A stretch of DNA of 64,000 nt, taken from assembly GCF_026151205.1 (NCBI RefSeq), contig NC_087073.1, positions 1,488,001 to 1,552,000 of the forward strand. Reading direction: 5' to 3'. This document shows, in pieces, positions 21,343 to 61,918 of this stretch. Position numbers and translations under genes: made by a program. Each line of letters starts with the position of its first letter. Position 1 is the first letter of the stretch. A model generated the notes under the pieces. The model had not been told where the DNA came from and did no database searches. It saw only the letters and a program-made list of their open reading frames with translations. The stretch comes from Bolinopsis microptera. Taxonomy: Eukaryota; Ctenophora; Tentaculata; Lobata; Bolinopsidae.

Positions 21343-23185
21343 TCACTCTTCTGCAACCTCTTCCTCTACATTCTCAACCTCATCATCAACTTCCTCATCT
21401 TCATCATCAACATCATCACCCCTGTCTTCATCGCTGGTGGTGTGTGCGAGATTTAGGTCCAGTTCGTCAACAGGTATTGCTTTCTCATAATACCGTCCTC
21501 TGTGTCCTCTCACTGCAATCAAAACTGTTTTAAGTAGCTCAAATCGCAAACGACGTCTAAGATTTGCCATGATGAGGCTTTTGTCCTGGCTGGTCTTGGC
21601 TGCCAGAAGTGTTGTCACTCGTTTAAGGAACATGGTAGCCTGTGGGCCCATACCTCCGGTGGTCGAGAATACAAGGCCACTGCAGGTTCCTTTTTCGATC
21701 TGTACACAGCGGTCTCCATATTTCCTTTCTTTCTCTCTCTCATGCTTCTTGTACATCTTTGCTGGGGTGTTGTGGTTAGCGTTGGATTTGGCTCCGGGGT
21801 GTAAAACCCTGATATCAAAAAATGCCATCTCCATTGGTGACCACAGACCTCTAGCTGCAATGTCAAGCCTTGCCCCATCATCCAGAATGGTACCAGGGCG
21901 AAGGCTTTCTCCAGTGCATGGCTGGAGTGTGGGCTCTACAACAACCTCATTACAGATTTTTTCTAGAATGCTTGCAATGGTGTCTCTCAGTCGGTTGTGT
22001 CTGCTGTTGACAAAGCCTCCTTTCTTGCAAATGAGAATGTGGTTGTAGGTGTTATCTTTGCCACAAATGCATTTCTTGGCTATGTTTGCAATGGGTAGAG
22101 CATATCTCAGTGCTATAGCGTCTTTGAACCCTTGCTTGTTCAAGACGAATCCGTACTTCTCATAGGGTAGTCCGGTCAGCCAGCTTGATGCACCTTTTTC
22201 ACATGCATGTGGGATCTTCTCACTGATCAAAGGTGGTAGATCGTTCATCAGCTGGTTTTTGAGAGATTCACGTCTCTTTGCATTTGACAGGCTAATGGCA
22301 CTCTTGACCGCTTTCCCAGCCTCTCTGTTGGTATTGAGAGTGGTGTGTTGCTTCAGAATGTGTTCTGTAAGCTGCTGGTTAGCCATGAGTGAGTTCTTGT
22401 ACTCAGTATCAGCAATTTCTACTGGATTGATTATAGCTAGTCCACCTAACTTGGCTGGGAGGGAGAACAGACTTCGCTCAAGGTCGGACCGGATTGTGTG
22501 TCCTGTCATGTTGGGAATGAGCAGATTCCTGATCTTGTCCTCAATGGGCTGCAAGTTCACTGCTATGTCGGGGGTGGTCCTCATCAGGAAAGACCATCTG
22601 CGGGAGGAGCCGTAAACAAAGGCAGCGTAAGCAAGGTGTGGCTCGTGCCGTGCAATTGAAGCCAATCCCTTGATCTCTTCTATCCATTCAACACATTTGG
22701 CTTGGATGAAATTATTCTTTCCAGTCTCTGTACCTATAAAGGAACCCAGGTATCGACAACCTTCGGTGGTGATGTTAAGGTCGGGGAAGAGAGACTTGGC
22801 TTCCTCTTGGTACTCCTCTTTAACAATAAGCCAGGTCTTGGACGGTTTGGGTAAATAGCCGTAAACAGGGCCAGATGCCTGTAGGGAATCCCACCAAATC
22901 TTCAGGGCTTTAAGCCTTCCTGCTGCTCCAGAATCATCTGCAAACCATATGTGTTTAGCAGCTTTGTTGGAGGGCTTATTTACCTCCGGAGTCCTATCTG
23001 GAGTTGTATCTGGTGGTGTCTCAATCTTATTGTTCTCCTCTTCACAGACCACGGGAGAGATATCTGGTGGCTCTGTGGGGAGTTTGTCCATAAGGGGCAT
23101 CAGGCTACAGGAGTAAAATGCAGAAGCACAGTTATCCCCCTGAGTAGTACCTTCTTGGGATAAAATAAACAATCCCTTGGAGTTT
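21343..23185 (-). CDS. LINE protein, second half of RT, zinc knuckle and nuclease-like region
   Basis: Starts with LFILSQEGTTQGDNCASAFY (RT block with the QGD turn). IWFADDSGAAG near residue 75 is the catalytic pair. GYLPKPSKTWLIVK and CRYLGSFIGTE follow as the usual RT blocks. Near residue 365 a Cys/His cluster CICGKDNTYNHILIC is followed by RHNRLRD. Further on are DDGARLDIAARG, MEMAFFDIRVLHP and KMYKKHEREKERKYG, an order that recalls the restriction-like endonuclease of R2/RLE-type LINEs (Arg-x-x-Asp, then D-x-[RK], then a distal Lys). The last 30 residues are almost purely Asp/Glu, an odd acidic tail. Nuclease function is inference. Confidence 0.8.
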
Positions 23186-24289
23186 CACAGTGGGCTGTGA
23201 GTGGGGGTCATGCTAGCATAGGTTATTTTAGACCATCACACATGCCCCTAACATTGTTTCTAAGGTAATTTGGGTACAAAAATACGATTCCAATCATTTA
23301 CAGGGCCGAAAATGTCTCAGAAAAAATTTTTGGGCCGATTTTGAGCAATCTTGTAGTCCAAAAATAGGAGGCTGATCCCAGGAAAAGTTGTTTTTTAGAG
23401 GTTTAATCAATTTTAAAGCTCTTTTATGAACTGTAAACGAAGGACAGCTATCTTAGGAACTCGAATCTTTTTGAATTATGAAAAAATATTGATCAGAAGT
23501 TGTGCCCATTTATATGACCAAAATTTTCTGAAACACCAAAATTGTTCCTGTTATTTTAAAAAATTTCGTTTAAAATCACGATTTTTTGGATTTTTATCAA
23601 TTTTAACTATAATAATTGTGATATTTTGATTTTTCATCCATATGCATCTGGTCTAGGATGCAAAAAATGCCACAAACATGGAGAATAACTAAAATATGTC
23701 AATTTAATAGCAAAATTGAGCTCATAAATTATCTAAAAATGCAGCAAATTTTACCCAATTTTTGAGTTTCTTAATTTTGTAAACAGAGTTCCCCCAAAAG
23801 TGCCCAAAGTGATTCTTATTGCATCTGATAGGGAATTGTCTAAGCTTTCTGATGATACCATGCATTATACCGAACTATTGCAAACCAACAACGATTTCTG
23901 TCGTTAAATACCCCAAAAATTGCCTAAAATACACGCCATAAAAAAGGCGCGGTCAAAAATCAGGTGAAAATGTTAAAGTCACACAGTTTTTTTTAGATGT
24001 CTGAGTATTCTGAAGTACTATACTGTATTTCAATTATTAAAAACTGCCTTGATCAGGCATTTTAGCCCAAAATAATAAATATTAGGCAATTTTTGGCTAA
24101 AAAAGGCAAAATTTCTTGACAGTGAAAAATGCTATTTTTTCACGCGACGCCATTTTGGCATCTTGCAAAGTTTTTAATTACGGTTTTTTGCATGAAATCG
24201 GGCTAGCGTTTTACAATAAGGAAAGCTTATTTTCAAAGAAATTTAAGAAAGTCGATTTTAGGCCTATGCTAGCATGGTAGCCCACTGTG
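23186..24289. mobile_element. Transib/RAG-like non-autonomous DNA transposon, 1,104 bp, 5-bp TSD
   Basis: Ends: CACAGTGGGCT at 23186-23196 and its exact reverse complement AGCCCACTGTG at 24279-24289. Flanks: AGTTT at 23181-23185 and 24290-24294. Removal restores the host LINE frame, which proves the boundaries to the base. The 5-bp duplication and CACNRTG termini are diagnostic of Transib and RAG/ProtoRAG transposons; CACAGTG equals the consensus heptamer of V(D)J signals. A second conserved block, ATGCTAGCATAGG, lies inside both ends, 17 bp from the heptamer on the left and 7 bp on the right. The interior is AT-rich with no coding frame, so a transposase from elsewhere would be required. hAT (8-bp TSD) and CACTA (3-bp TSD) are excluded by the duplication length. 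Confidence 0.75.
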
Positions 24290-25490
24290 AGTTTGGTATG
24301 TACAGTTTTGCTGCTTTTCTGTAGGTATTAACAAGATATTTATACAGCTCGGGACACATCACACTTGTGTTGTGGAGGGCAACTCTCCGGTTTAAACGGT
24401 TGAAGGCATTATCTGCATCAACAAGAAGAATACCATGAGTGTCTTCATCTTCATACATATTTCTAAGAGCATGAATAGCAGCTTCTACTCCACCTTCTAG
24501 GCCTGCTGACGCTTGAAGTGGTGCAGTGGCTGCTAGGATCTCTGGTTTGAGCAGAGTAGTAACTGACTTGCCGATTATTCGGCGGAGGACTTCACCAATC
24601 CCTATTGGTCTAACGCCAGGTTTCTTGTCCAAAGGAATAAGGCGGCAAGATATGAACGTTGCTAGGGGATCAGGGTCAACTAATTCAGTGCAGAGTTTCC
24701 TGGTTAGTAGGGCAACTGATTCACATAGCTCAGCACCACATGTCTTGAATGACTTAGAGCAAAGGATACGTTGCCAACCATCAGAATCTAGGCCAGAGGG
24801 GCCGGCTGATCCATTGGTGTTCTTTGCTGCCTTTTGGATTGCTTCAATATCTATGTTCTCGAATATAACATTGTCTACTTTTTCCAAGCCAACCTTGCTG
24901 AGTAGACTGCTTACAAGGAAAGATTCTTCAGGCTGTGGGTCGGGATGTTTACTCTCTAGCAACTTGATAGTTTCTGGTGTCGATTCTAGGAGGCCCCCAG
25001 CTTTATTTGTCACCCATCTGAGTGCTGCTGACACCTTTCCTTGAAGCATAAGCTTGGAGAATACTTTGTGGGTATGTTGGGGAGTAAACTTGCTTGATGT
25101 TAAACGCTTCTGGATAGCTTTACTTTCTTTGATGAGGCCCTTGATGTCGCCTTTCTCCCAAAGTTTGAGGCGATCTTCAAGATATCTGACGTGGTCCTTT
25201 GTTTTGGATCGTTTGGAAGGTTTTTGGAGGAGCAGGGCTGGCATAACCATAAGTGCAGTCATGGCCACATTTTGAAGGGGGGAGTTGTTAACATAATAAT
25301 TGATGACTTTAGAGGTTGCTTTCACATAAGCTTTACCTTGAATACCAGAAGGAACCTTGAACAGGTTTCTCTTCCACTTGATTATTTCATCATAGGCATT
25401 GTCAAATGTCTCTTTAATAGCATGCCCCTTGAGCGAACCCCATGTTGCGGGAAAATTATTGTATTTTGATTTTAAATAACAAATGTGCAA
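24290..25490 (-). CDS. LINE protein, N-terminal part and first half of the RT domain
   Basis: About 400 codons. The start has a Trp-Gly block (ATWGSLKGHAIKET), a helical basic region with LLLQKPSKRSKTKDH and LEDRLKLWEKGDI, then the RT domain: VRPIGIGEVLRRIIGKSV (fingers), LQASAGLEGGVEAAIHAL, and LLVDADNAFNRLNR, which holds the first catalytic Asp near residue 358. The original frame breaks after IPNS, where the inserted element begins; a few vector-like codons from the insertion end the open frame. Confidence 0.8.
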
Positions 25491-27757: not shown

Positions 27758-30646
27758 CTATAGCATTATGCATTGGCCAGTATTTGAGTGGAAATCTGGG
27801 CTCTTATAGTAGGCTGTAAAATTTTCGTTCACAGAGAGAATTGAATGGATTGCTCTTGCTGTGGCAGTAAATTTTGTAGGGTCTAGTGTTTTATCGGATA
27901 GCAAACCGGCTAGGTCAGTAATATTTTTGGGATGGAAGTTAAATTTTTCTCTAACTGAGGAGTAGAGTAAACAGTCAGTTAGAACATGAATTTCGTCCTC
28001 AATAGGCTTAAGCCCCTTGCTGAAAAAGCAAAAAGTGCACCATCGATGTTCTCTTGGTACTAGGGGGGTTTCGTAACGGCCCCTCTCAATGTAAAGATTG
28101 TGGCAGCTAATACGAAACCTTGTTAAGCTTTTCCGAGCATTGGGGATCTTAACCACTCCTAAGTATGTTTCTGGTTCAAAATCATGTTTAATTTGATTGT
28201 AGAATTCTAGTTTAGGTGAGGATGCCTTGGCAGATTTCCAGGTATCCACAAATTCTTCCCTCATGTTGTGACTGATTTGGGTAGAGAGCTTGGATTTTGA
28301 AGAGGATGAGTGGGGGAAGTTATATTTGGTGAGAAGATTAGAGATGTTGGTGTACCAAGGAAGGCCCAGCATAATCTGCTCGTGAAATGCAGCGGAGAGA
28401 AGTTCATTTTCAGTGCTTTCAAGACGACTATAGAAATCTATTGCAAGTTTGCAGGCTTCAAAGAAGAGGGGGTGGCGCCCACTTTCACCCCAGCAGCCTA
28501 TATTTGATGCTTTTGAATGGACAGACAAGGACCACTTGATAAACTTAAGGTGGAATCTTTCATAGTGGTCTTGTGAGATGTACCTGAGAGTATGCTGGGG
28601 GTTGGCTTTGCTATCTGTTTTGGAGAGGTATCTCATGGTTTTTGAGTGAGGACATAAGATTTGGCAGCCATAGAGCAGTATCGGTTTTATTAGAGAGTCA
28701 AATAGAATGTTTAGGGAACGGTGAGAGAGGGCATCTTTGACGATATTGCCTTTGAGGCCATAGAGAGCACGGAGAGCCTTGGCCCTCAGTTCAGTATTTG
28801 CTGCTGTAAAAGATCCATTTCTGTGGAATATAATGCCAAGATAGCAGTATTTTTCGGTGTGTTGGATGGGCTGGCCTCCCAAAATGAATGTTTCATAGGA
28901 TTGTTTTCTTTTAGGAGGGCAGAATATGAGAATCTTGGTTTTTTTAATGTTTACTTCAAGGCCCATAGAGTTACAGAAGTCGAATAGGATGTTTATATTG
29001 TCTTGCAAGGCCTTGGGACTTAGGGCAAGTAGGACAAGATCGTCAGCCCAGAGCAGATGTGATATTAGGACGTCAGCTAGAATAGGATAATCACCAACAG
29101 ATTTCAGGAGAGATGACAAGTCGTTGATATAGATTTTAAAAAGGTCCGGTGATAGGGGGTGTCCCTGCTCTGTTCCTTTTCCAATGTCAATATTAGGGGA
29201 CAAGAGTTTGGAGATTTTTATATGAGCTATTGAGTTTCTATACATATCACTTAGGCAATTGAAGAAGTTTCCAGTTATTCCAAGGCATGTGATTTTGTGC
29301 AGAAGGAGGTCCCTACATACAGTGTCAAAGGCCTTTCTTAGATCAACAAAGCATGCATAGAGGCGAGCTTTCTTAACCTTGGTATATTTGTCAATGACTG
29401 TCTTAAGGGTAAAAACGTGGTCATTTGTTTGAGCACCCTTCGAGAACCCTAGTTGTTCTTTTGGGTCAGGGCAGTAGAGCTTTTTGAAGTGCAGGAGACG
29501 CTCAAGTAAGATGCTAGAAAATAGTTTACCCATACAGCTACCAACAGCTATTGCTCTGTAGTTGTCCGGGCTGAAAGGGTTGCCAGACTTGTAAATAGGA
29601 GTAATGATGCTGGTGTGCCATGGATAGTAACCAGAGACCAGTGAGTGGTTGAAGTTTTTGAGGATGGCTTTGAGACAAAGCGGAGTTACGCTCTGAAGCA
29701 TCTCGTTGGATATCAAGTCGTTTGAGCAACTTTTACCTTTTTTGAGATTTTTGATGGCAGAGGTCACTTCAGATTCTGACATGAGCTTATTTAGGATATC
29801 CAGATCTGGTGGTTCAGGGTAATGTTTGTGATTGTGGTGAGTGAGATCTGGCTCCTGGTCTGGTTTTTTATAAAGGGATGCAAAGAAGTCATGGAAGCTA
29901 GCTAAATCAAATTTGTCAAGTAAGGGGCTAGTGTCATGTTCTTGTTTAAGCCGTTTAAATTTTTTCCAGTCGAGTATGTGACCTTCTTCTATAGCTTCAT
30001 TTAACTTCTTAAGGAAAGCTACTTTCTTACTGTTTACAAAATTGCTATGCTTGTTGCGTTGCTTAAAGTATTCTCGTCTGAGGATACTGTTACAGTGCTT
30101 ACTACCAAGCCGGTTTGCTAGCCTATTTAGGTTCCGCCGCGAGGAGTTGACTTGTGGGTCGAACCATTTCTTACGGGCAGAATTTTTGGGAGGCTTTTTC
30201 ACTTTTAAGGCTATATCAGCAGCACTGTGGAGACATTTTATGACTGCATCGTTCAGTTCGTGATTGCCCTCCAGAGTACTGCTAAATTCATTTGTCACAA
30301 TGCTTTCCAGATTGTTGATAATTTCGGGCGAGGTAAGGGCTTTTTTAAATAGTGAATGGGAGGTGTTGCTATCCCACTTATAGCCACAAGGAAAGTTAGA
30401 AAAGTCTGGGAGCTGGAAGTTTGCGACAAATGGTTCAAATGTAGTGAGTTTCAAGACTAATGGACAATGATCAGAGTATGATGTAAACTCTTTTACTTGG
30501 AGAGAGTTTACATGATCTCTTGCCCATGAGGTGATTACAAAATAGTCAACCACACTGCTTCCATTGTATTTGTGACAGGTCATTTTTCCAGTGGTGTCCC
30601 CAAGGGTACGACCATTAAGAATTTTGAGTTGGTTATTGATAACCAT
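27758..30646 (-). CDS. APE-type LINE ORF2: endonuclease end, RT, C-terminal CCHC-like knuckle
   Basis: 962 open codons. The N-terminus is the last third of an apurinic-type endonuclease: ILNGRTLGDTTGKMTCH, SSVVDYF, and SYSDHCPLVL (catalytic SDH at residues 58-60). The RT domain follows: TPIYKSGNPFSPDNYRAIAV, QLGFSKGAQTNDHV, CFVDLRKAFDTV (first Asp), GTEQGHPLSPDLF, and LLWADDLVLLA. Near the end lies CTFCFFSK, then IEDEIHVLTDC, the usual CxxC-x-H-x-C knuckle of such LINEs. The copy is 5' truncated at about 30670, missing the first endonuclease blocks, but has no stop or frameshift, so it is recent. The clade (Nimb, L1/Tx1 or I-like) is not settled from sequence alone. Confidence 0.85.
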   Translation of the reverse strand: MVINNQLKILNGRTLGDTTGKMTCHKYNGSSVVDYFVITSWARDHVNSLQVKEFTSYSDHCPLVLKLTTFEPFVANFQLPDFSNFPCGYKWDSNTSHSLFKKALTSPEIINNLESIVTNEFSSTLEGNHELNDAVIKCLHSAADIALKVKKPPKNSARKKWFDPQVNSSRRNLNRLANRLGSKHCNSILRREYFKQRNKHSNFVNSKKVAFLKKLNEAIEEGHILDWKKFKRLKQEHDTSPLLDKFDLASFHDFFASLYKKPDQEPDLTHHNHKHYPEPPDLDILNKLMSESEVTSAIKNLKKGKSCSNDLISNEMLQSVTPLCLKAILKNFNHSLVSGYYPWHTSIITPIYKSGNPFSPDNYRAIAVGSCMGKLFSSILLERLLHFKKLYCPDPKEQLGFSKGAQTNDHVFTLKTVIDKYTKVKKARLYACFVDLRKAFDTVCRDLLLHKITCLGITGNFFNCLSDMYRNSIAHIKISKLLSPNIDIGKGTEQGHPLSPDLFKIYINDLSSLLKSVGDYPILADVLISHLLWADDLVLLALSPKALQDNINILFDFCNSMGLEVNIKKTKILIFCPPKRKQSYETFILGGQPIQHTEKYCYLGIIFHRNGSFTAANTELRAKALRALYGLKGNIVKDALSHRSLNILFDSLIKPILLYGCQILCPHSKTMRYLSKTDSKANPQHTLRYISQDHYERFHLKFIKWSLSVHSKASNIGCWGESGRHPLFFEACKLAIDFYSRLESTENELLSAAFHEQIMLGLPWYTNISNLLTKYNFPHSSSSKSKLSTQISHNMREEFVDTWKSAKASSPKLEFYNQIKHDFEPETYLGVVKIPNARKSLTRFRISCHNLYIERGRYETPLVPREHRWCTFCFFSKGLKPIEDEIHVLTDCLLYSSVREKFNFHPKNITDLAGLLSDKTLDPTKFTATARAIHSILSVNENFTAYYKSPDFHSNTGQCIML

Positions 30647-54566: not shown

Positions 54567-55150
54567 TAGCTATACAGAAAATAAACTTTAAATTTAAATC
54601 TAACCTTGAGTGAGATAAGAAACAGAAAATAAACGTTAAATTTAAATCTAACCTTGAGTGAGATAAGAAACAGAAAATAAACTTTAAATTTAAATCTAAC
54701 CTTGAGTGAGATAAGAAACAGAAAATAAACTTTAAATTTAAATCTAACCTTGAGTGAGATAAGAAACAGAAAATAAACTTTAAATTTAAATCTAACCTTG
54801 AGTGAAATAAGTTAAACAGAAAATAAACTTTAAATTTAAATCTAACCTTGAGTGAGATAAGAAACAGAAAATAAACTTTAAATTTAAATCTAACCTTGAG
54901 TGAGATAAGAAACAGAAAATAAACTTTAAATTTAAATCTAACCTTGAGTGAGATAAGAAACAGAAAATAAACTTTAAATTTAAATCTAACCTTGAGTGAG
55001 ATAAGAAACAGAAAATAAACTTTAAATTTAAATCTAACCTTGAGTGAGATAAGAAACAGAAAATAAACTTTAAATTTAAATCTAACCTTGAGTGAGATAA
55101 GAAACAGAAAATAAACTTTAAATTTAAATCTAACCTTGAGTGAGATAAGA
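54567..55150. repeat. 48-bp minisatellite, about 12 copies
   Basis: The unit begins AACAGAAAATAAACTTTAAA and ends TTGAGTGAGATAAG. Eleven units are 48 bp and one is 51 bp, so the array stays in frame on the minus strand and yields 12 copies of a 16-residue hydrophobic/basic repeat. It starts within a few bases of the end of the following exon. Confidence 0.95.
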
Positions 55151-56367: not shown

Positions 56368-56935
56368 TGGTAGCGTTACCATGTAACTATGGTAGCGCTA
56401 CCATGTAACTATGGTAACGCTACCATGTAACTATGGTAGCGCTACCATGTAACTATGGTAACGCTACCATGTAACTATGGTAGCGCTACCATGTAACTAT
56501 GGTAACGCTACCATGTAACTATGGTAACGCTACCATGTAACTATGGTAACGCTACCATGTAACTATGGTAACGCTACCATGTAACTATGGTAACGCTACC
56601 ATGTAACTATGGTAACGCTACCATGTAACTATGGTAACGCTACCATGTAACTATGGTAACGCTACCATGTAACTATGGTAACGCTACCATGTAACTATGG
56701 TAACGCTACCATGTAACTATGGTAACGCTACCATGTAACTATGGTAACGCTACCATGTAACTATGGTAACGCTACCATGTAACTATGGTAACGCTACCAT
56801 GTAACTATGGTAACGCTACCATGTAACTATGGTAACGCTACCATGTAACTATGGTAACGCTACCATGTAACTATGGTAACGCTACCATGTAACTATGGTA
56901 ACGCTACCATGTAACTATGGTAACGCTACCATGTA
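56368..56935. repeat. 22-bp minisatellite, about 26 copies; four more at 60193-60268
   Basis: The unit combines TACCATGTAACTATGGTAA with CGC. The first few alternate GCGC and ACGC, the rest are nearly identical. The same unit reappears at 60193-60268, and half a unit at 60354-60370 runs into poly-C. Confidence 0.95.
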
Positions 56936-57648
56936 AACTGTAAAGTCACACCCAATCAACTCTACCGAGAGGAACATAGTGGAACAAACCACTGAGGAGC
57001 AAAAACCACGAGTATTGCTTTACACCTCTAGATCGGCGATATTTGGACAACACATCTGTTCATCCATCATCGCCACAACATCACCACCAATATGTTCATC
57101 CTACATAGTAGTGGTAGTAGTATAAACATCACCACCAATAGGGTCATCCATCATCAAGCCTCGCGGACTGTTAGTCCTACCGGGTGATTGGTAGTGCAAA
57201 CACTGGAAAAAACAATTGAACAAAATTACCTTATATGGTAGTGTTACCATAGTTACGCTACAAATTAAAGGTTTTCAATGCACAAACTCCACCAGGCGCC
57301 GCGGACGTCCAGTAAATTTATATGTCCCTACAACAAGGACGAGCAATCTAGATCTACCTTAGAAAATTAGAAATATGATTATTTAGTTCCTGAGGTATTC
57401 CAAGACAATGTTATTGTTGATCTGGGTGCACAAACGCTAGTAACTGTATAGTACAGATAAAGCTTTAGCTAGTATAGATCAATCTAGAACAATCATCACA
57501 AATATATACCTATACAATGCTTTTGGACACGAAGGAAACACACAACGTCAGGCTTGAAATCTTTGTAAAACTATATCATTAGAGCCTGTAAAAACAAATA
57601 TATACCTACTGGTGTCATCTACTTAGTGGACTTTTTGGTCAACTTTAG

Positions 57649-57715: not shown

Positions 57716-58355
57716 TGAATAAAATACATATGTCTGATAACATAGCGTTAGTTGTAGTAACTTTATACAAATATTTCGAATGTGTCAAAAGTTCCGAGTG
57801 AATAATTATCACATAACGATCCGTTGTAAGTTTAAATCAAAAGCAAAACCCCATTACAAAAGCACACAGTTTTATTCAAACGTACCAGATGAAAAGTGTG
57901 CCTTGGTAATTATAGTGGAGAATGGAGATGAACAATGACAACATCTCATTATGGATAACACATAACACGATGATGTGAAATATAAACCATTACGGGTAGC
58001 GTAACGTTGTGTATTATTTAAAGAAAAGTGGTTAAAACTAGCCGTGCACCAGATGGGTCTAAAAGTAGAAGTTGATGAAACAATGGTATCACACTAGCCT
58101 GGAGAGGGATTATTTAAAACATATAAGTGAAACGAAAAGTTATATCACACTACTCTATATCACACTATTCTATATCAAACTTTTCTATATCACCTTTCAT
58201 TACACTATTCTGAATTCCGTACTCTTTTAGATCATAAAGATTATCCGACGCTTTGTTCAGTAATATGGGGGGTTCTCTACATTTAATATAGTCAAAAAGT
58301 CGGTAAAACCCCTAAAACTAATTTGTTGACAATGGTGTCTATTTCAAAGCTCAGA

Positions 58356-58880
58356 GAGAATGTTCTAGTTTCACTTCTGTTACCATAGTAACTCAGAGAG
58401 AATGTTTAGAGAGAATGTTCTAGTTTCACTTCTGTTACCATAGTAACTCAGAGAGAATGTTTAGAGAGAATGTTCTAGTTTCACTTCTGTTACCATAGTA
58501 ACTCAGAGAGAATGTTTAGAGAGAATGTTCTAGTTTCACTTCTGTTACCATAGTAACTCAGAGAGAATGTTTAGAGAGAATGTTCTAGTTTCACTTCTGT
58601 TACCATAGTAACTCAGAGAGAATGTTTAGAGAGAATGTTCTAGTTTCACTTCTGTTACCATAGTAACTCAGAGAGAATGTTTAGAGAGAATGTTCTAGTT
58701 TCACTTCTGTTACCATAGTAACTCAGAGAGAATGTTTAGAGAGAATGTTCTAGTTACACTTCTGTTACCATAGTAACTCAGAGAGAATGTTTAGAGAGAA
58801 TGTTCTAGTTACACTTCTTTTACCATAGTAACTCAGAGAGAATGTTTAGAGAGAATGTTCTAGTTACACTTCTGTTAAAT
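58356..58880. repeat. 55-bp minisatellite with embedded X-box, about 9.5 copies
   Basis: Each unit contains GAGAGAATGTTCTAG, a TTTCACTTCT or TTACACTTCT step, GTTACCATAGTAAC and CTCAGAGAGAATGTTTA. Units are almost identical, with the last three carrying the TTACACTT variant, a sign of directional spread. Confidence 0.95.
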
Positions 58881-60901: not shown

Positions 60902-61918
60902 AGTACGCGGTAACAGTGCGACTAACTGTGTTACAGTGTGACTAACTGTGTTACAGTGCGACTAACTGTGTGACAGTGCGACTAACTGTGTAACAGTGCG
61001 ACTAACTGTGTTACAGTGCGACTAACTGTGTGACAGTGCGACCAACTGTGTAACAGTGCGACTAACTGTGTAACAGTGCGACTAACTGTGTAACAGTGCG
61101 ACTAACTGTGTAACAGTGCGACTAACTGTGTAACAGTGCGACTAACTGTGTAACAGTGCGACTAACTGTGTAACAGTGCGACTAACTGTGTAACAGTGCG
61201 ACTAACTGTGTAACAGTGCGACTAACTGTGTAACAGTGCGACTAACTGTGTAACAGTGCGACTAACTGTGTAACAGTGCGACTAACTGTGTAACAGTGCG
61301 ACTAACTGTGTAACAGTGCGACTAACTGTGTTACAGTGCGACTAACTGTGTAACAGTGCGACTAACTGTGTAACAGTGCGACTAACTGTGTAACAGTGCG
61401 ACTAACTGTGTTACAGTGTGACTAACTGTGTAACAGTGCGACTAACTGTGTTACAGTGTGACTAACTGTGTAACAGTGCGACTAACTGTGTAACAGTGCG
61501 ACTAACTGTGTTACAGTGCGACTAACTGTGTAACAGTGCGACTAACTGTGTAACAGTGCGACTAACTGTGTAACAGTGCGACTAACTGTGTAACAGTGCG
61601 ACTAACTGTGTAACAGTGCGACTAACTGTGTAACAGTGCGACTAACTGTGTAACAGTGCGACTAACTGGGTAACAGTGCGACTAACTGTGTAACAGTGCG
61701 ACTAACTGTGTAACAGTGCGACTAACTGTGTAGCAGTGCGACTAACTGTGTTACAGTGCGACTAACTGTGTAACAGTGCGACTAACTGTGTAACAGTGCG
61801 ACTAACTGTGTAACAGTGCGACTAACTGTGAACTGTGTAACAGTGCGACTAACTGTGTAACAGTGCGACTAACTGTGGTACAGTGCGACTAACTGTGTAA
61901 CAGTGCGACTGACTGTGA
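60902..61918. repeat. 20-bp satellite, about 50 copies; remnant at 63413-63447
   Basis: The unit ACTAACTGTGTAACAGTGCG repeats in perfect 20-bp register for about 900 bp. Variants with TTACAG or TGACAG are scattered and cluster at the left end. One unit near 61830 is shortened. Two units reappear at 63413-63447. Confidence 0.95.

Follow-up and report, generated by a model that had tools for sequence, protein, structure and literature searches.

Transib and RAG-related transposons

The Transib transposase is related to the enzyme from which the vertebrate antibody-gene recombinase later arose, and ctenophores are a lineage widely placed near the root of the animal tree. The present analysis concerns a 1,104-bp element in the ctenophore Bolinopsis microptera, which is very probably a young, non-autonomous Transib element, or miniature inverted-repeat transposable element (MITE), mobilized in trans by the transposase that a complete Transib element of this genome encodes. 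It lies in a 64,000-nucleotide stretch of contig NC_087073.1 (assembly GCF_026151205.1, forward strand, positions 1,488,001 to 1,552,000), referred to below as the window, and coordinates given without a prefix are window positions. Of three glutamate-receptor ORFs compared with PDB chains, one has the ML032222a chains (Mnemiopsis, by the prefix) as its best hits, and the other two match kainate receptors from elsewhere first.

Several described systems come close to this one. According to Tao et al. 2022 (PMC9435367), Transibs split into two subgroups, and all of Subgroup I have asymmetric terminal inverted repeats (TIRs) and a CTT1 tail. The same paper counts 6 ctenophore Transib-like proteins, and its legends name Mnemiopsis leidyi and Pleurobrachia bachei. 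Transibs with 12/23-like asymmetry are described from Drosophila and Anopheles (PMC8355894), and in RAGL transposons the TIR spacings are 27/31 for ProtoRAG and 4/13 for AanRAGL (PMC8289069, PMC9435367). A literature search on asymmetric Transib TIRs in Mnemiopsis found PMC9435367 alone, and a search combining Transib, MITE, 5-bp and CACAGTG found nothing about ctenophores, judged by title. The B. microptera system resembles Transib Subgroup I in its single transposase, C-terminal CCGHC tail (CTT1), asymmetric TIR pair and ctenophore host. Because such ends are published in kind (PMC9435367), the asymmetric ends described below represent a clean further member of a known group.

A young MITE family with 5-bp target-site duplications

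The window element belongs to a family, here called family A, and was delimited by the window sequence, by genome copies and by target-site duplications (TSDs). A preliminary description had placed it at 23181-24294, which holds when both copies of its AGTTT duplication (23181-23185 and 24290-24294) are included; the element proper is 23186-24289, on the plus strand. The perfect 11-bp TIRs and the direct AGTTT repeat that it reported can be read in the window sequence, with CACAGTGGGCT at 23186-23196 and AGCCCACTGTG at 24279-24289, the outer part of each TIR being a CACAGTG heptamer (23186-23192 on the plus strand, 24283-24289 on the minus strand). With at most one mismatch, CACAGTGGGCT occurs at both element ends and nowhere else in the window. 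Since at least two occurrences are reached in 17 of 100 shuffles, this count alone is not significant, and the significance of the ends derives from the genome copies that share them. The ORF list of the window contains no open reading frame (ORF) of at least 120 amino acids inside the element.

The genome was searched with both 80-bp ends, taking the best 40 of 47 left-end candidates and the best 40 of 50 right-end candidates. In each list, 28 of the 40 matches end precisely with the outermost base of CACAGTG; apart from the window copy, the rest overrun it by 4 bases at most. The two lists reduce to at least 47 distinct family-A places, all of which were examined, the autonomous element described below included; this number is a lower bound because a pattern scan (see below) lists more ends of family A. 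Both ends are present in 42 of the 47 places, three of them split by later insertions, and a single end in the other 5. The left CACAGTG is found in 41 and the right CACAGTG in 40 of these 42 elements, and exact 5-bp duplications of varied sequence flank 40 of them, as expected under a test set beforehand, namely that other copies share the termini and carry 5-bp duplications. None of the outcomes named beforehand as refuting (a differing duplication length, termini extending beyond CACAGTG, or only hAT or CACTA transposases matching the ends) emerges in our reading, in which two exceptions (L016 and L046, considered below) are attributed to decay and one element in GAG repeats (L012) is ambiguous, a 5-bp and an 8-bp repeat fitting equally. 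The 40 TSDs have a GC content of 45.5%, with C at position 1 in 18; positions 1 and 5 are complementary in 10 of them, and positions 2 and 4 in 11.

Measured against their majority consensus, the 35 near-full-length family-A copies are 99.2% identical in the median; 5 of the 35 form a diverged subfamily (~78%), and the main part of family A is young. The window element has the hallmarks of a MITE, being short, non-coding, multi-copy and homogeneous, with ends in common with an autonomous element. Two of the family-A copies carry later insertions of separate interest. One contains a nested family-B MITE (L012:1742-2648, 907 bp, TSD TATAT; for family B see below), and another (L013, C6:16641400-16645400) is split near position 515 by an insertion carrying a 514-amino-acid ORF which, by eye only, resembles a Penelope-type reverse transcriptase with a GIY-YIG end.

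CAC termini are found in several transposon superfamilies, and the window element could in principle be a hAT, CACTA or Chapaev element with a chance resemblance to the vertebrate recombination signal sequence (RSS). TSDs are 8 bp in hAT, 2-3 bp in CACTA and 4 bp in Chapaev elements, whereas those found here are 5 bp in 40 of 42 elements, and the same ends enclose a RAG1-core transposase. An assignment to these superfamilies was rejected on TSD length, with no family search aimed at hAT or CACTA transposases made, and is considered extremely improbable.

An autonomous relative and its predicted transposase

The preliminary description had called for a source enzyme elsewhere in the genome, and a gene for a RAG1-core/Transib transposase is indeed present inside an element with the same ends. 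This autonomous element (L011:264-4190, on C3) is 3,927 bp long and has the TSD AGATA. A search of the genome with the Pfam RAG1 profile (PF12940) gave two places, one of which, C3:4783511-4784548, lies inside it. The window element matches the autonomous element over its last 497 bp (23793-24289, plus strand) at 99.4% identity, and over its first 37 bp at 92%. Because the left-end homology is limited to 37 bp, simple loss of internal sequence from this autonomous copy does not account for the MITE.

The predicted transposase comprises 740 amino acids, its frame being interrupted solely by a putative 136-bp GT-AG intron, which is deduced from the reading frame and from an uninterrupted homologous ORF in another locus (L015). 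It scores 46.7 bits against Pfam RAG1 (cut-off 25), and its matches among PDB chains include HzTransib (6pqn, E=8.4e-23), amphioxus RAG1L (3.9e-12) and vertebrate RAG1 (3jbw, 2e-8). At the level of motif and alignment, it contains the zinc-type motifs C407xxC410 (C2) and H631x4H636 (H2), which we take to match the zinc-binding pattern. The residues D290, D392 and E658 fall on 6pqn chain positions 109, 208 and 419, as counted in the printed alignment, D392 standing at the weakly aligned end of its alignment stretch. With a numbering offset of 17, these residues would correspond to the HzTransib catalytic triad D126, D225 and E436 (PMC6941560). The protein-level search that had been proposed for a RAG1/Transib core thus returned a Pfam RAG1 match, the D, D and E residues and the C2 and H2 motifs in a single protein. 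Near its C-terminus, residues 707-720 (CKHCDMRGHSRRWC) read Cx2Cx3GHx4C (CCGHC, CTT1 tail), a motif given for the RAG1L tail (PMC7204232). HzTransib (Helicoverpa zea; PDB 6pqn series) is the closest solved structure by sequence, with the D/D/E positions conserved, but its TIRs are described as symmetric (PMC8289069) and the CCGHC tail distinguishes the protein described here from it.

The 5-bp TSDs, together with a RAG1-core transposase in an element with the same ends, identify the window element as a Transib MITE with a predicted source enzyme; the preliminary observation itself is confirmed, and the interpretation attached to it is supported. A search of the genome with the transposase listed 37 matches, from which three further loci were fetched. 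A search for CAC[AT]NTG ends with matching 5-bp flanks gave no pair in two of them (L056 and L057) and one pair in the third (L058), which defines the distant family D described below.

Asymmetric ends and a conserved one-turn offset

The ends of family A had been treated in the preliminary description as plain TIRs, which overlooks an asymmetry between them. They align in register over the first 11-12 bases and not beyond, and a 13-bp inner block, ATGCTAGCATAGG, is separated from the left heptamer by 17 bp but from the right one by 7 bp. In the window element, the left end consists of the heptamer, a G-rich 17-bp spacer (23193-23209) and the block (23210-23222) on the plus strand, and the right end, on the minus strand, of the heptamer, a 7-bp spacer (24276-24282) and the block (24263-24275). 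The 17/7 spacing is present in 42 of the 42 family-A elements with both ends, one of which shows one altered base in its left block.

When the genome was scanned for CACAGTGGGCY followed by TAGG after a free gap of 3-30, 151 matches (71 + 80) were obtained, and a control scan with the same pattern reversed gave 0 + 13; the first places were listed, and some ends were matched twice or via an inner TAGG. Among the matches listed are two sister families (B and C) and three places that fit no family. Four family-B elements were examined, three from the scan and the one nested in L012 (block AGGCTATATTAGG and variants), as well as three of family C, the three complete pairs among the matches listed (block ATGATAGTTTAGG). 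By eye, the TSDs are 5 bp in 4/4 family-B and 3/3 family-C elements. The spacing is 17/7, an offset of 10 bp, in six of these seven elements; the seventh, L063 of family B, has 16/7 and an offset of 9 bp. The block sequence differs among families A, B and C, and within each element the blocks at both ends agree at 11-12 of 12 bases, a match reached in 0-2 of 300 shuffles per element. A palindrome in ATGCTAGCATAGG was considered as a family feature and rejected, the blocks of families B and C being non-palindromic.

The family D element (L058:608-4955; C6:5380107-5384454) is 4,348 bp long and has CACAGTG ends and the TSD TGGTG; its 5-bp duplication is 1 of 1, the candidate having been selected by script with a 5-bp match as a requirement. 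Its transposase has 30% identity to that of family A. The family D block, TGGAAARAATCAAG, lies 19 bp behind the left and 10 bp behind the right heptamer, an offset of 9 bp. Read instead as the A-rich, nonamer-like GAAARAATC, the spacing becomes 21/12. The right end of family D recurs intact in two further loci (L071 and L072), in altered form in a third (L073), and with 2 mismatches at C6:6214704. Across the families, the two end types are offset by 9-10 bp, approximately one helical turn.

In L015 and L059 (C2:19.699-19.705 Mb), two Transib pieces seemingly adjoin in opposite orientation. The minus-strand piece is a family-C element that includes a long transposase ORF; on the plus strand, a transposase tail precedes a 7-type end.

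The layout invites a mechanism in which each end would be bipartite, consisting of the CACAGTG heptamer and the 13-bp inner block. A transposase dimer would bind both parts and would pair one 7-type with one 17-type end; cleavage would presumably proceed via hairpins, as reported for HzTransib and RAG, and the ends would be joined to target DNA with a 5-bp stagger. It is also possible, though we lean against it, that in this Transib MITE the 17/7 arrangement is merely inherited, with the transposase reading the outer ~11-17 bp and ignoring block and spacing. Invertebrate RAGL proteins have been argued to depend on the outermost 15-17 bp and to tolerate asymmetric TIRs fairly well (PMC7204232), families A-C are related, so that their shared spacing may reflect descent, and the 16/7 element of family B indicates that the spacing is not absolutely fixed. 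Against such passive inheritance, the left-end homology between MITE and autonomous element comprises exactly the heptamer, the 17-bp spacer and the block, and its 3 mismatches all lie in the spacer; the blocks differ between families yet agree between both ends of each element; and the distant family D has an offset of the same kind, of 9 bp. At the sequence level, the limits of the left-end homology, the placement of the mismatches and the family-specific blocks point to a function of the inner block.

Relation to RSS and RAGL systems

The vertebrate 12/23 RSS shares with these ends the consensus heptamer CACAGTG and the arrangement of two signals whose spacings differ by approximately one helical turn. 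Unlike it, families A-C lack a consensus nonamer at either 12 or 23 bp, and their spacing is 17/7 rather than 23/12. In four family A-C elements tested, the nonamer ACAAAAACC was matched at 12 or 23 bp by at most 4 of 9 bases, and the right end of family D has GAAAGAATC at 12 bp, with 5 of 9. When the best ACAAAAACC matches 0-42 bp from the heptamer were sought at 10 ends, they were no better than those in shuffles (shuffle frequency 0.25-1.0), and A-rich stretches at ~20-21 bp of right ends are for this reason not claimed as nonamers. A canonical 12/23 RSS was accordingly rejected.

The C-terminal CxxCx3GHx4C tail and the asymmetric TIRs are features in common with RAG1L (PMC7204232, PMC9435367), raising the question of whether the element belongs to a RAG1L-RAG2L (ProtoRAG-type) family, with a RAG2-like gene acting from elsewhere. 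ProtoRAG and RAGL elements (amphioxus, molluscs, Aureococcus) also have a RAG1 core, 5-bp TSDs and bipartite TIRs, but differ from the present system in inner block and spacing. The autonomous element contains no ORF of at least 100 amino acids beyond the two transposase exons, although a short-exon gene would escape this criterion. The RAG2_PHD profile has no match in the genome, which is weak evidence at best, because the control genomes were silent too and the search is uninformative. The transposase matches HzTransib better than amphioxus RAG1L (8.4e-23 vs 3.9e-12). Membership in this family is considered very improbable, and a RAGL transposon was rejected as no RAG2-like ORF of at least 100 amino acids was found in the source element. 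Of the preliminary label ‘Transib/RAG-like’, the Transib part thus stands, while the RAG-like part is not borne out, no RAG2-like ORF having been found in the source element and no consensus RSS nonamer at 12/23 bp.

Of greatest interest is that a system with a single protein conserves an offset of one turn between its ends. Compared with the paper that defined Subgroup I (PMC9435367), the present data give a measured spacing of 17/7, based on 42 family-A elements and on 7 from the sister families B and C (16/7 in one of these), alongside 19/10 in a distant family. Speculatively, and on balance improbably, ctenophore Transib transposases may follow a RAG2-free, one-helical-turn rule of end pairing (7/17 in families A-C; 10/19 in family D, or 12/21 with the Transib-like nonamer GAAARAATC as block), the blocks co-evolving with the transposase. 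If this rule were true, the 12/23 logic of V(D)J recombination would predate RAG2, and possibly animals, and a one-protein system for testing it would be at hand; otherwise, a known Transib group is extended to another species. In either case, a young, homogeneous Transib MITE family occurs together with an intact-looking source transposase in a ctenophore, and its end layout parallels the 12/23 signals, which allows asking whether the transposase by itself accounts for uneven ends or RAG2 was required for them.

Several observations weigh against the main reading, that of a MITE with bipartite ends moved in trans by the transposase of the autonomous element. Two of the 42 family-A elements lack an exact TSD; L016 shows no repeat and its right end is damaged, while in L046 the repeat is shifted by 2 bp, both of which we read as decay. 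A single complete autonomous copy was found, the splice sites of its transposase gene are putative and the activity of the enzyme is predicted, and the MITE has just 37 bp in common with its left end. The shared spacing of families A, B and C does not represent three independent events, because the families are related. In family D, the left end is complete in one copy only, two other left matches having no terminal heptamer, and L071 and L072 may represent one duplicated insertion, as they share the same outer flank.

The interrupted ORF and its empty sites

The window element interrupts a minus-strand ORF of a repeated retroelement (21343-25490), of which the N-terminal part lies at 24295-25490 and the C-terminal part at 21343-23172. 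As the preliminary description had stated, removal of the element and one AGTTT rejoins the two halves in frame: joining of the flanks by script gives a single open frame across the site (...YIPNSKGLFILSQEGTTQGD...). The right flank of the ORF has 33 paralogous matches in the genome, and in 3/3 of the paralogs fetched the empty site is gapless, with 200/200 joined positions aligned at 99.5, 97.5 and 96.5% identity.

This ORF had been taken to encode a reverse transcriptase. By eye, it contains motifs resembling those of reverse transcriptases (LLVDADNAFNRLNR, EGTTQGD and FADDSG), and to that extent the assignment holds; profile and structure searches did not bear it out. Pfam RVT_1 scores 14.7 bits on an element-free paralog (cut-off 29.6), the two ORFs in the window match no Pfam family at E 0.01, and the element-free paralog matches no PDB chain at E 0.1. 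The reverse transcriptase may belong to a diverged lineage.

Other features of the window

The window also contains long, very regular tandem arrays at 54574-55150, 56368-56936, 58353-58877 and 60910-61917, with units of 48, 22, 55 and 20 bp, respectively. On the minus strand, at 27758-30646, lies an ORF of 962 amino acids.

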